Below are positions 9,472 to 12,298 of a stretch of 64,000 nt of DNA, piece after piece. Source of the DNA: Aurantiacibacter sediminis (GTDB lineage Bacteria; Pseudomonadota; Alphaproteobacteria; Sphingomonadales; Sphingomonadaceae); contig NZ_JAEANY010000001.1 of assembly GCF_016019885.1 (NCBI RefSeq), positions 1 through 64,000 of the forward strand, given 5' to 3'. Position 1 is the stretch's first letter. Each line of letters begins with the position of its first letter. A program made the position numbers and the translations under genes. The notes beneath the pieces were generated by a model. That model worked only from the letters and a program-made list of their open reading frames with translations. It searched no databases and was not told where the DNA came from.

Positions 9472-10224
9472 ATGGCCACTCGCCCTCCCCGCATTCTCGC
9501 CATTGCCGGATCGGACAGTTCGGGCGGCGCGGGAATTCAGGCGGACATCAAAACCATCACTATGCTCGGCGGTTATGCAATGACCGCGATCACTGCACTG
9601 ACTGCTCAGAACAGTCGCGGGGTGCGGGCGGTGGAGTCTTGCGATCCCGATTTCGTCGCCGCGCAGATGGATGCGTGTATGGAGGATATCGGCGTCGATG
9701 CGGTGAAGATCGGCATGCTCGGCAGTGCGGATATTGCGGAGGTTGTGGCAGACCGGCTGGAGGACCTGCCCTGCCCGATTGTCTTCGATCCGGTGATGGT
9801 CGCCACCAGCGGCAGCGTGCTGGCTGACGAGGCGACGGTGGAAGTCTTCGAATGGCTGATGGATCTGGCGACACTGACCACGCCCAACGTGCCCGAACTC
9901 GAAGCGCTCGGCGGCGCGGCGGGCATGGCGAAACGCGGTGTCACCTATCTCGCCACGGGTGGCGATGCCGATGGACCGATGGTCGAAGACCGTCTCGTGC
10001 GGCCCGACACGGACGATGTGGTGTGGAGCGAGGCGCGCATCGTTACCAAGCACACCCACGGCACTGGTTGCACTCTTTCGAGCGCAATTGCGACCAATCT
10101 CGCCAAAGGCCTGCCGCTAGAGGAAGCAGTCGCGCAAAGCCGCCGCTTCGTGCGCGAGGCTCTGATGAATGCGCCGGGTTTCGGCCAGGGGAATGGCCCG
10201 CTGGGACATCAGGCGGTTCGGTAG
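9472..10224 (+). CDS. thiD: Hydroxymethylpyrimidine / HMP-phosphate kinase
   Basis: Thiamine biosynthesis kinase, 250 aa, that phosphorylates hydroxymethylpyrimidine twice to HMP-PP in the cytoplasm. It shows the ribokinase-fold signatures: AIAGSDSSGGAGIQADIKT at the substrate site, KIGMLGSADIAEVV, VFDPVMVATSG, TPNVPELEALGG, and the C-terminal anion hole HTHGTGCTLSSAIATNLAKG with the catalytic Asp position occupied by Cys/Thr as in the family's GTGC motif. It ends 5 nt before the asparagine-synthetase-like gene, which has clearly different base composition. No TPP riboswitch is visible upstream because the gene sits inside the glmM unit. Confidence 0.93.
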   Translation: MATRPPRILAIAGSDSSGGAGIQADIKTITMLGGYAMTAITALTAQNSRGVRAVESCDPDFVAAQMDACMEDIGVDAVKIGMLGSADIAEVVADRLEDLPCPIVFDPVMVATSGSVLADEATVEVFEWLMDLATLTTPNVPELEALGGAAGMAKRGVTYLATGGDADGPMVEDRLVRPDTDDVVWSEARIVTKHTHGTGCTLSSAIATNLAKGLPLEEAVAQSRRFVREALMNAPGFGQGNGPLGHQAVR

Positions 10225-10228
10225 ACTT

Positions 10229-12088
10229 ATGTTTGCTGGAATAATTGGCCGTGGAGGTGCACCGGTGCCTGCGCAAAAAGCCTTGGAGCAGACTTTACTC
10301 GCCAGACTCCAGCCCCGCCGACCGGCTGATTTAAGCTGGACCTGGCGCAATCAAGGCGCCTTGCTGGTCCAGGCACTGCACCGCAATCTGCCTAATGATC
10401 CAAAAGGCAATCGACCTTTCAAATGCCCCGATAGTGGCAGAGTTATTATCGGTTGGATTCGACTGGATAATGGATGTGAACTGCGGACGCGTCTGAATTG
10501 CCGCGAAGATCTCCCAGACGCGGAAATTGTCTTGATGGCCTTCGGTGAATGGGGCGATCGCGCATGCGCTTTTTTGCGCGGCGATTTCGCATTCCTCATT
10601 TACGATCCGGAGACGAGGATGGCGTTGTGCGCGCGCGACCCATTTGGCGTGCGGCCATTCTATTGGTATGCTGACCAGAACCGCGTTGTCGTATCGAGCA
10701 CTGCAGCGATCTTTCCCTCGCTCGATCTTAACAACGTGGGTCCGGACGACCGATGGATCGGCGAGTTTTTGATCGGCTATCAGGCGGATGTTCGCAGGAG
10801 CGCCTTTACCAATGTTCACAGGCTCGCGCCCGGGCATATGCTCAGCCTCAATGGGGACGGGGAAATTCGAGAGACGCGGTCTCAAAGATTTGAAGACAAC
10901 GCACCGTTCTCAAAACGACCAAGTAAAGAGGCGGTTGATCGTTACCGCGCAGAATTTACAAATGCCGTCGCGATGCGATGTCGTAGCGCGTATGACATTG
11001 GCTCTGAAAATTCAGGGGGTCTCGATTCATCAACGATCACTGCCAGCGCAATATCCGCGCTGAGCAAAAGCGAGCGCGAAGTGTGTGGATTTGGCTTTGC
11101 AATCGCGGAGCATGAAAAGCGATTGATCGACGAAAATACACGGCATTGCGGTCTGCAACACAGCATCGTCTACGATGCCATGGCGGATCATACCGATGAA
11201 CTGTCTAGACTGACAATCGAGTGCCTTGGCTACCCATCGGAGCATGCCAATGCTCAGATGCATTGGGACTTTTATCGAGAATGCGAACGGCGGGAGATAC
11301 GCACGCTTCTCTCCGGGTTTGGTGGCGATGAGATTGTCACTTCACAAGCATTCCGATTAAACCGTGAATTATGGTCGAAACGCGCATTTATCCCGCTCCT
11401 TCGCAACATCAGCTCGCCGCGAGCTGATATCCTCCCTCAGCTTCGCGAACTGACGAGATGGCTGCGAGGGTCGGAGCCGATCGCGCCGCAACTACAACGA
11501 CTGTTTGAATGGCGGTGGAGTCATTCGGTCCTCGCCAGACACTGGCGAGAGGATGCTGCGCTCAGGGAGTTGAATGAAAGCAGAGCACATTCGGATGTGA
11601 GCGATACGGTGAATGGCCAAATCCTCAATTATGGAATGAGGCCCTATGTTCAAAGCCGCCTGGAAGGGTGCAGTCTTATCGCTCAGGCATTTGGCGTCGA
11701 GTATCGGTGGCCGCTCCTGGATCAGCAACTGGTGCAGACTTACCTCGACACACCATCGATCGAAAAAAGCACTGGCCTCACCGGACGCTGGCTGCATCGC
11801 AGAGCGACAAAGGGACTAGTTCCGGATTCGATCAACCAGCAACGCAGCAAGTCGATGGGATCTGTGCCCTTGCAAGCCATTCCAAGCTATGGGCGCTCCC
11901 TTGGTGCATTCATGGAAAAACTAAACCCTGCGACCTTCGACCATGTCGATCGAACCCGGCTGGTCAATCTGGAAAGAGCGCGCTCCTCGGCTCCGCAAAA
12001 TCAGGAAAGAAGGTTTACGCGCTTTTACATCGACACCCTCAATCGCGTCGCACAGCTCTCACACTGGCTTGACTTCAATCAGAATTAA
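10229..12088 (+). CDS. Asparagine-synthetase-like macrolactam synthetase (lasso cyclase candidate)
   Basis: A 619-aa protein with the AsnB two-domain plan. The N-terminal class II glutamine amidotransferase fold includes ARDPFGVRPFYWYADQ (about 135-150), and the C-terminal ATP-pyrophosphatase domain has SGGLDS (262-267) and SGFGGDEIV. True asparagine synthetases start MCGI with Cys as the glutaminase nucleophile; this one starts MFAGIIG, so that Cys is absent. Loss of the Cys is characteristic of lasso-peptide cyclases and beta-lactam synthetase, which use the ATP domain to activate a carboxylate for amide formation. A lasso-like precursor follows 63 nt downstream. GC is lower than in neighbours (27 of 60 bases in the line starting 10441), suggesting acquisition. 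A standalone AsnB-like enzyme with another amide product remains possible. Confidence 0.65.
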   Translation: MFAGIIGRGGAPVPAQKALEQTLLARLQPRRPADLSWTWRNQGALLVQALHRNLPNDPKGNRPFKCPDSGRVIIGWIRLDNGCELRTRLNCREDLPDAEIVLMAFGEWGDRACAFLRGDFAFLIYDPETRMALCARDPFGVRPFYWYADQNRVVVSSTAAIFPSLDLNNVGPDDRWIGEFLIGYQADVRRSAFTNVHRLAPGHMLSLNGDGEIRETRSQRFEDNAPFSKRPSKEAVDRYRAEFTNAVAMRCRSAYDIGSENSGGLDSSTITASAISALSKSEREVCGFGFAIAEHEKRLIDENTRHCGLQHSIVYDAMADHTDELSRLTIECLGYPSEHANAQMHWDFYRECERREIRTLLSGFGGDEIVTSQAFRLNRELWSKRAFIPLLRNISSPRADILPQLRELTRWLRGSEPIAPQLQRLFEWRWSHSVLARHWREDAALRELNESRAHSDVSDTVNGQILNYGMRPYVQSRLEGCSLIAQAFGVEYRWPLLDQQLVQTYLDTPSIEKSTGLTGRWLHRRATKGLVPDSINQQRSKSMGSVPLQAIPSYGRSLGAFMEKLNPATFDHVDRTRLVNLERARSSAPQNQERRFTRFYIDTLNRVAQLSHWLDFNQN

Positions 12089-12151
12089 GACGAGCCTTCG
12101 CAGTATGTTTCCAGCCGGGGCGAGAAACCCAAAAAAGACAAGGATCCGACA

Positions 12152-12298
12152 GTGAAGAACAAGAATAACAACACAGTCGCGGGTGTGAAAAAGACGTACG
12201 TAACGCCTTCAATCAAAGATCTGGACAACGCAAAGATCGAAACCGGCCCAGTTTCTTTCACGCAAGAGATCGGGATTTACTATACTAGGTCATCCTGA
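12152..12298 (+). CDS. Putative lasso-peptide-like RiPP precursor
   Basis: A 48-codon gene starting with GTG, with AAGGA seven bases upstream. The leader holds KKTYVTPSIKDLD, which matches the Y-x2-P-x-(L/I)-x2-L recognition pattern bound by PqqD-like elements in lasso and related RiPP systems. It is followed by AKIET and a candidate core GPVSFTQEIGIYYTRSS. Gly32 to Glu39 would form an 8-residue macrolactam ring, and the tail ends in Ser, as in lasso peptides of the C-terminally phosphorylated paeninodin group. The usual leader Thr is at -1 here, not -2, if Gly is core residue 1. The upstream gene encodes a cyclase-like enzyme. No B1/B2 maturation genes or transporter are nearby. Function is inferred; the small size also allows an unrelated peptide. 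Confidence 0.55.
   Translation: MKNKNNNTVAGVKKTYVTPSIKDLDNAKIETGPVSFTQEIGIYYTRSS

Follow-up and report, generated by a model that had tools for sequence, protein, structure and literature searches.

In the 64,000-nucleotide stretch of Aurantiacibacter sediminis DNA analyzed here (the window), homology identifies a 48-codon frame, A, as a real gene, which very probably encodes the precursor of a lasso-type peptide and lies beside the enzyme that would close its ring. The reading of this locus in which we place moderate confidence is that A encodes the precursor of a lasso peptide of the paeninodin-like, Ser-ended kind and the adjoining gene C its dedicated macrolactam synthetase, the two genes standing away from the remaining pathway and working by a mechanism that would operate in trans. 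Gene A, its conservation, the intact cyclase and the genome positions of the partner genes are established at the level of sequence.

A lasso-type precursor frame next to a cyclase gene

The translation of gene A is MKNKNNNTVAGVKKTYVTPSIKDLDNAKIETGPVSFTQEIGIYYTRSS, and its features are collected in Table 1. The initial annotation had described a 48-codon frame with a good ribosome site, and the GTG at 12152 is indeed preceded, 7 nt upstream, by AAGGA. The PqqD-type leader motif that it pointed out is present as YVTPSI, with a Pro that is kept in 12/12 rows of the alignment, and the frame has both the leader pattern [YW]xxPx[LIV] and the lasso-type acid spacing of 7-9 (Glu at 9, or 8). When the 1581 window frames of at least 20 aa were searched with a profile of five homologues from which the window was left out, A ranked first at E 9.5e-10 and the runner-up reached E 1.6; the A peptide has no family match in Pfam or NCBIfam. 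Short frames are common, as the 1581 themselves attest, but that A is a chance open frame beside an asparagine-synthetase-like gene is extremely improbable, and the homologues refute it: independent relatives, matched at E 9.5e-10, have their frame in the corresponding position and on the same strand, with the same enzyme adjoining. The idea that A is part of a LOG-like gene on the opposite strand was rejected, as the two do not overlap (12298 vs 12317). A repeat scan and a promoter/terminator scan of the A-C locus gave nothing useful.

Table 1. Features of the A-C locus, in window coordinates.
Feature	Position	Strand	Remarks
thiD-like gene, outside the system	9472..10224	+	PF08543 E 1.4e-75; ends 4 nt before C
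Lasso-cyclase-like protein C (AsnB family)	10229..12088	+	619 aa, intact; PF00733 E 5.1e-31, GATase_7 4.3e-16
Shine-Dalgarno-like AAGGA	12140..12144	+	7 nt before GTG; read from sequence
Lasso-type precursor gene A	12152..12298	+	48 codons, GTG start, TGA stop; E 9.5e-10 to the profile of five relatives
Predicted leader, aa 1-30, preferred register	12152..12241	+	Tyr-15, Pro-12, Ile-10, Ile-2, Glu-1; from alignment and motif+13 position; putative cut site
Putative RRE-binding motif YVTPSI (YxxPxI)	12197..12214	+	Pro 12/12 and Tyr at least 90% of alignment rows; would bind by analogy
Predicted core TGPVSFTQEIGIYYTRSS, aa 31-48	12242..12295	+	proposed Thr1-Glu9 ring (predicted), C-terminal Ser18

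The cyclase-like neighbor noted in the initial annotation is an intact AsnB-family gene of 619 codons, whose stop lies 63 nt upstream of A. In NCBIfam it matches best to NF033535, a lasso cyclase model (E 1.9e-59), at 201.9 bits against a cut-off of 525 for this "exception" model; the cyclases on contigs C8 and C6 of the same genome also fall under that cut-off, at 222.0 and 285.6 bits. The motifs GGxDS and SGxGGDE are invariant in the 7/7 aligned cyclases (window and six relatives), and position 2 is Phe, not Cys, in the same 7/7. Phe2 together with intact GGxDS and SGxGGDE is what a synthetase without glutaminase, such as a lasso cyclase, would be expected to show. Solved relatives at E ≤ 1e-10 are asparagine synthetases and one "hydroxyamidotransferase" only.

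Homologous frames and partner enzymes at related cyclases

We compared the locus with 397 genomes drawn from the larger family, and the relatives called nearest here are the nearest within those 397. A cyclase match at E ≤ 1e-30 is found in 17/397 genomes, its own included, and six relatives exceed 250 bits at 33-41% identity (G041, G284, G195, G134, G127 and G032). Just 3' of the cyclase and on the same strand, 5/6 of these have a homologous leader-motif frame; in the sixth, G127, no motif-bearing frame was found beside the cyclase, and nine lie elsewhere in the genome. The five homologues keep Tyr/Phe (Tyr is replaced by Phe in one), Pro, one Gly, one Glu and the last Ser. This was the comparison that the initial annotation had proposed, and it supports its claim of a RiPP precursor. 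In the window peptide and the five homologues, Lys13, Pro19, Gly32 and Glu39 are invariant (6/6), FTQE occurs in 4/6, and the last residue is Ser in 6/6, in keeping with the paeninodin-type C-terminal Ser that had been suggested. In tblastn searches of a small locus set, the window peptide matches the loci of three relatives at E 8e-7 to 1e-4; with the homologue adjoining the G041 cyclase it shares 45% identity across 38 aa (E 8e-7 in that set).

Partner enzymes of the relatives were sought within 18-kb stretches round the cyclase. A B2 protease is present in 6/6 (over the NF033537 and PF13471 cut-offs), as are a PqqD-type B1 (over cut-off) and an HprK-like kinase (Hpr_kinase_C PF07475, E 1e-3 to 8e-9, over cut-off in 2), and a PF00685 sulfotransferase is over cut-off in 5/6. 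Our own enzyme profiles drew in part on these very loci, so the six nearest were re-tested with Pfam and NCBIfam, whereas the results for the other loci come from our profiles. Scanning genome contigs with one sequence turned up no relative, whereas an alignment scan did: run on a collection of 84,980 species, it yielded 53 loci (two of which repeat G284 and G032, and many of which are contig ends) from Alpha-, Gamma- and Deltaproteobacteria, Anaerolineae, Lentisphaerae and others. With our own profiles, B1 was found in 35 of these, kinase in 34, B2 in 25, sulfotransferase in 23 and nucleotidyltransferase in 14; B1, B2 and kinase occur together in 22, and 13 have none of the five enzyme types. 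By these gene neighborhoods, the cyclase family normally sits with B1, B2 and kinase, and the presence of B1, B2, kinase and sulfotransferase beside the relatives' cyclases therefore makes this a branch of phosphorylated-lasso-type biosynthesis.

A rather improbable alternative is that the AsnB-like enzyme does not make a lasso, and instead forms another amide or ring, such as an unthreaded macrolactam or a side-chain amide, on a leader-guided peptide. The score of C under the NF033535 cut-off would agree with this, threading is unreadable from sequence, and phosphorylated linear relatives (LPP) share the RRE, the motif and the kinase (PMC13381572). LPP systems lack a cyclase, however, whereas in 6/6 relatives the enzyme is accompanied by a B2 that passes the lasso B2 cut-off, and 5/6 have a precursor with an acid at position 9.

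Several other arrangements were seen among the loci. An Anaerolineales contig (L119 6191-7066, +) carries four tandem precursor frames with a WSKPRFW leader, all Ser-ended, followed by B1, B2 and cyclase. One precursor has a Cys pair in its predicted ring (SGVCKKNCE; L143 10000-10137, +) and another a Trp-rich predicted ring (GGWIHWWYE; L140 4387-4557, -). The 3' end of the G127 cyclase is overlapped by a 453-aa frame that gives an ATP-grasp-like impression (L095 7102-8463, -).

Register of the predicted core

In 5/5 homologues a Thr lies 13 residues past the motif aromatic, followed by one residue and then Thr/Ser/Val-Gly, with a Glu 23 residues past the aromatic. The homologues thus read Tyr(-15), Pro(-12), Leu/Met(-10), Thr(-2), residue 1, Gly2 and Glu9, and the window has Ile29 where they have Thr(-2). 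Because Ile29 aligns with this conserved Thr, the core probably begins at Thr31 and the ring would be Thr1-Glu9 rather than Gly1-Glu8. The Gly1 and Glu8 of the initial annotation are both invariant in 6/6 and have lasso-type spacing, although its numbering is probably one residue short; its own objection, a leader Thr at -1 instead of -2, falls away once Thr31 is residue 1. At -2, then, the window would have Ile and its five relatives Thr. Ile(-2) has been shown for BsfA, and Ile or Val(-2) predicted in Sphingomonadales, in the portion of PMC10368454 consulted. The leader spacing of PbaA is the same (W-15, P-12, L-10), and the leader motif has been shown to bind B1/RRE in other systems (both PMC13381572). 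Paeninodin, AGPGTSTPD..., has the same xGP...acid-9 layout in the sequence excerpted from PMC12427821. Thr1 would be unusual, as it is outside the list of N-terminal residues seen in lasso peptides (Gly, Cys, Ser and Ala, with Asn added) in the consulted section of PMC12670498.

The register of the initial annotation, with a Gly1-Glu8 ring, the core GPVSFTQEIGIYYTRSS, an odd Thr at -1 and a system that is otherwise the same, is to our minds unlikely. In its favor, lasso rings usually start with Gly, rings of eight residues are standard, and Gly32 and Glu39 are the residues conserved in 6/6. In that register, however, position -2 shows no conservation, with Glu, Ala, Glu, Arg, Ala and Gly across the six peptides, while the residue before it is Thr in 5/6 and Ile in the window; and distant members such as GKFSELGE and GKTIYNFE start at the same place, motif+15, with Thr or Ile at -2. 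A wider count of 412 small motif frames in 58 loci gave 32 with Thr/Ile/Val at motif+13 and Asp/Glu at core position 8 or 9; 27/32 of these are Ser-ended, against 42/380 of the other motif frames (21/26 when the window and its five relatives are removed), a statistic that was framed after the relatives had been seen and is partly circular, and a few of the 32 frames look like chance.

Partner enzymes encoded elsewhere in the genome

The initial annotation found no B1 or B2 genes nearby, and a profile search of the 64,000 nt agrees, detecting no B1, B2, kinase, sulfotransferase or nucleotidyltransferase in the window; the kinase within the cluster that typifies paeninodin-type systems was thus not found by this search. 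It had also recommended a search of the rest of the genome (G000; 2.67 Mb in 14 contigs, 99.98% complete), which finds one PqqD-like gene at C6:270 kb, another at C8:388 kb and a single B2, at C8:382 kb on another contig. The C8 locus comprises this B2, an ABC exporter, a nucleotidyltransferase (PF14907), a lasso-cyclase-like enzyme of 662 aa, an HprK-like kinase, a sulfotransferase (PF00685) and a PqqD-type B1, and no motif-bearing precursor frame was seen in its gaps. A locus at C6:266-272 kb has a cyclase, a YxxP precursor, a methyltransferase, an HprK-like kinase, a B1 and a nucleotidyltransferase, and is without B2. The C8 and C6:269 kb kinases are weak matches to HPr kinase models. As only one B2 was found, any leader removal by a lasso-type B2, for the window gene or the C6 gene, would fall to the C8 protein, barring a B2 that the search missed. 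A minimal two-gene RiPP locus, which the initial annotation had envisaged, is therefore unsupported if taken to be self-sufficient: B1, B2 and kinase are near the cyclase in 6/6 relatives, and here they are at other loci.

The precursor at C6:268 kb (L005 5732-6088, +) is unusually long, as is one at L031 3173-3547 (+); these lasso-type precursors of 118-124 aa have a Thr-Gly-Gly-Ser core start and run on into a domain with a possible likeness to a phage tail-fiber/S74 chaperone.

The C8 B1 shares 64-69% identity with the B1 of five sister C8-type loci. Against the counterparts in the clusters of the nearest relatives, identity does not exceed about 26% for the C8 B1 and B2, and about 25% for the B1 by itself. 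In Bacillota, RRE choice depends on whether the motif has Trp or Tyr, although RREs outside that phylum are described as relaxed (PMC13381572). A YxxP leader may be a poor ligand for the C8 B1, because C8-type precursors are mostly WxxP, the C8 B1 and B2 are distant from those of the nearest relatives and Trp/Tyr steers RRE choice in Bacillota. The alternative B1, at C6:270 kb, comes from a YxxP locus that has no B2 of its own.

The GC content is 0.449 for the precursor, 0.542 for the cyclase and 0.607 for the window, which points to import of the A-C pair, and the best counterpart of the cyclase among 39 other genomes of the genus is 33% identical (G032). With GC this low, the pair may have been imported into a genome unable to finish the product. 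A stranded remnant of this kind, a laterally acquired C-A pair without B1, B2 and kinase that yields no product here, or yields one only with the partners of another host, would suit the low GC of A and C, the 33% identity of the best match in the genus, the partners near the cyclase in all six nearest relatives and a C8 RRE that may prefer WxxP. We nevertheless regard it as doubtful: cyclase and precursor are intact, the conserved residues are all present, the ribosome site is good, and precursors away from enzymes recur in sister genomes.

Precursor genes away from C8-type loci

A C8-type cyclase is found at E ≤ 1e-60 in 11/40 genomes of the genus. Precursors beside it are WxxP at 6/7 loci (G022, at two loci, G030, G031, G034 and G035) and YxxP at 1/7 (G032); no precursor was found beside the C8-type cyclase of G000, G004, G008, G009 or G015, in the last of which the contig ends there. 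At E ≤ 0.01, an 11-sequence WxxP profile matches 32 places, every one of them in a genome that has a C8-type cyclase (G000, G004, G008, G009, G015, G022, G030 and G035), and the 29 genomes of the genus without one have no match at E ≤ 0.1; the contrast of 8/11 with 0/29 (Fisher test) is biased by the training genomes. The profile was trained on six C8-cyclase genomes (G004, G008, G009, G015, G022 and G035), and from outside these the only matches at E ≤ 0.01 are in G000 (3.2e-6, and 0.003 for a stop-bearing frame) and, weakly, G030 (0.005), whose gene was in an earlier six-sequence profile.

Thirty of the 32 matches read as unbroken small frames (G008 C1:516 kb lacks such a frame and G000 C6:898 kb has an internal stop), and 30/30 of these are Ser-ended, which is partly built in since the profile has a Ser column. 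Four of the 30 are within 3 kb of a C8-type cyclase (two in G022, and those of G030 and G035), and 26 are more than 40 kb from one or on other contigs, the distance not being measurable in G015, a draft of 240 contigs. Four sister genomes with a C8-type locus each have 4-8 WxxP, Ser-ended precursor genes away from it. In the window's own genome, the WxxP precursor-like gene at C6:896 kb matches the 11-sequence profile, of which it is not a part, at E 3.2e-6; the same frame is L213 1498-1650 (-) and L248 6467-6619 (-), and a similar one 1.6 kb off, at C6:898 kb, is interrupted by a stop. Other searches of this genome gave less: a single C8-type precursor as protein query found nothing, the six-sequence WxxP profile (which was run on ten genomes picked for having a C8-type cyclase) found nothing, its best match being at E 1.01 inside a 241-aa frame, and a Phe-type leader pattern found one match vs four for the control.

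The more distant genome G127 has nine YxxP, Ser-ended frames between 1.56 and 3.10 Mb, spread over 1.5 Mb of one chromosome (L193, L194, L198 and L200-L205), with its cyclase at 1.72 Mb and no precursor found beside the cyclase/B1/B2/kinase locus. Five of the nine are at E ≤ 0.014 and four at 0.04-0.81, and they were accepted for their mutual likeness; 8/9 have a Gly-Lys...Glu core and the ninth does not. A tenth match lies inside an 875-aa frame and was rejected.

Lasso-enzyme profiles found nothing in the 2.3-3.1 kb round 23 precursor places (the nine of G127 and 14 of the genus, the interrupted one included), in the 15 kb round the G000 C6:896 kb precursor, or in stretches of 0.5-1.5 kb and one of 3.1 kb round other scattered precursors. 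The same profiles do match in the stretches of precursors local to C8-type loci. By eye, most of 18 inspected precursor starts have a ribosome site. Two WxxP precursors that adjoin C8-type cyclases (L105 4221-4355, -, and L106 346-495, +) have no Asp or Glu in the predicted core.

Discussion

For the product of gene A we infer a supply of enzymes in trans, a cut site, a ring, threading and tailoring as follows, the pair borrowing B1 and B2, and perhaps a kinase, from other loci. The YVTPSI motif of the leader would bind a stand-alone PqqD-type RRE (B1) from C8 or from the C6:266-272 kb locus, and the B2 protease at C8:382 kb would cleave on the C-terminal side of Glu30, accepting Ile rather than Thr at -2. 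The window cyclase would then activate the Glu9 side chain with ATP and join it to the Thr1 amine, giving a 9-residue ring round a 9-residue tail. An HprK-like kinase from C8 or C6 could phosphorylate the C-terminal Ser; such kinases modify the last Ser in the linear precursor, in the parts of PMC9266682 and PMC8498205 consulted. A part may also be played by the sulfotransferase, the nucleotidyltransferase and the ABC exporter of C8.

Supply in trans is suggested by the single B2 found in the genome, by the B2 locus, where no precursor frame was seen, and by the scattered precursors in sister genomes. Against it stand the absence of B1 and B2 at the A-C locus, a product that is so far a prediction, and the candidate precursor that the C8 machinery has at C6:896 kb, which means that this machinery needs no window gene to have a purpose.

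Among known systems, the paeninodin/pseudomycoidin type (Bacillota, and SyanA/SyanK of Sphingobium) resembles the one proposed here in its split B1/B2, its HprK-like kinase and nucleotidyltransferase in wider clusters, its C-terminal Ser, its motif at -15/-12/-10 and its xGP...acid at 9. It differs in having one cluster, Trp in the motif and Ala1/Asp9, whereas the window has a Tyr motif, Ile(-2), a predicted Thr1/Glu9 and an A-C pair apart from B1, B2 and kinase. Bsf, a lasso peptide from Bradymonas, and the precursors predicted in Sphingomonadales share Ile(-2) (Ile/Val in the predicted ones), a YxxPxL leader, an HprK-like kinase and split B1/B2, but Bsf has Tyr(-17), Gly1-Asp8, a C-terminal Asp, phospho-Ser3 and a single cluster (PMC10368454, from the portion consulted). 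Prochlorosins, for which one ProcM serves many precursors, are alike in pairing promiscuous machinery with many precursors, and unlike in being lanthipeptides made by other enzymes, the pattern here being lasso-type and putative (passages of PMC10783134). Citrulassin also needs an enzyme encoded outside its cluster, a deiminase; that enzyme is a tailoring one, whereas here essential B1 and B2 would be supplied. Genes for a sulfotransferase and a nucleotidyltransferase had already been noticed next to lasso clusters (both points from passages of PMC8498205). The consulted portion of a 2026 review (PMC13352647) has no mention of "orphan" or "sulfotransferase".

Lasso peptides with a kinase, with sulfotransferase genes or with Ile(-2) are thus already known kinds. 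As far as the consulted portion of the open-access literature shows, what is new is a precursor and cyclase apart from the only protease, together with scattered precursors; that portion nowhere describes a single locus serving lasso precursors dispersed over the genome, an absence that is not proof.

A broader proposal, whose chances we judge to be evenly balanced, is that sphingomonads run lasso-type biosynthesis in trans: a central, precursor-less locus (B1, B2, kinase, sulfotransferase, nucleotidyltransferase, exporter and cyclase) would serve several scattered Ser-ended precursors, and satellite A-C pairs would add peptides with their own cyclase while borrowing B1 and B2, in a prochlorosin-like combinatorial system. 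Genome mining usually seeks lasso precursors beside their enzymes. If machinery and precursors are separate, as they are in the window, in four sister genomes (4 to 8 scattered precursors each) and in a distant genome (nine), lasso-type peptides will have been missed and "precursor-less" loci perhaps misread as broken. If true, the proposal would show how one RRE/protease pair handles several leaders, with Tyr or Trp in the motif and Thr, Ile or Val at -2.
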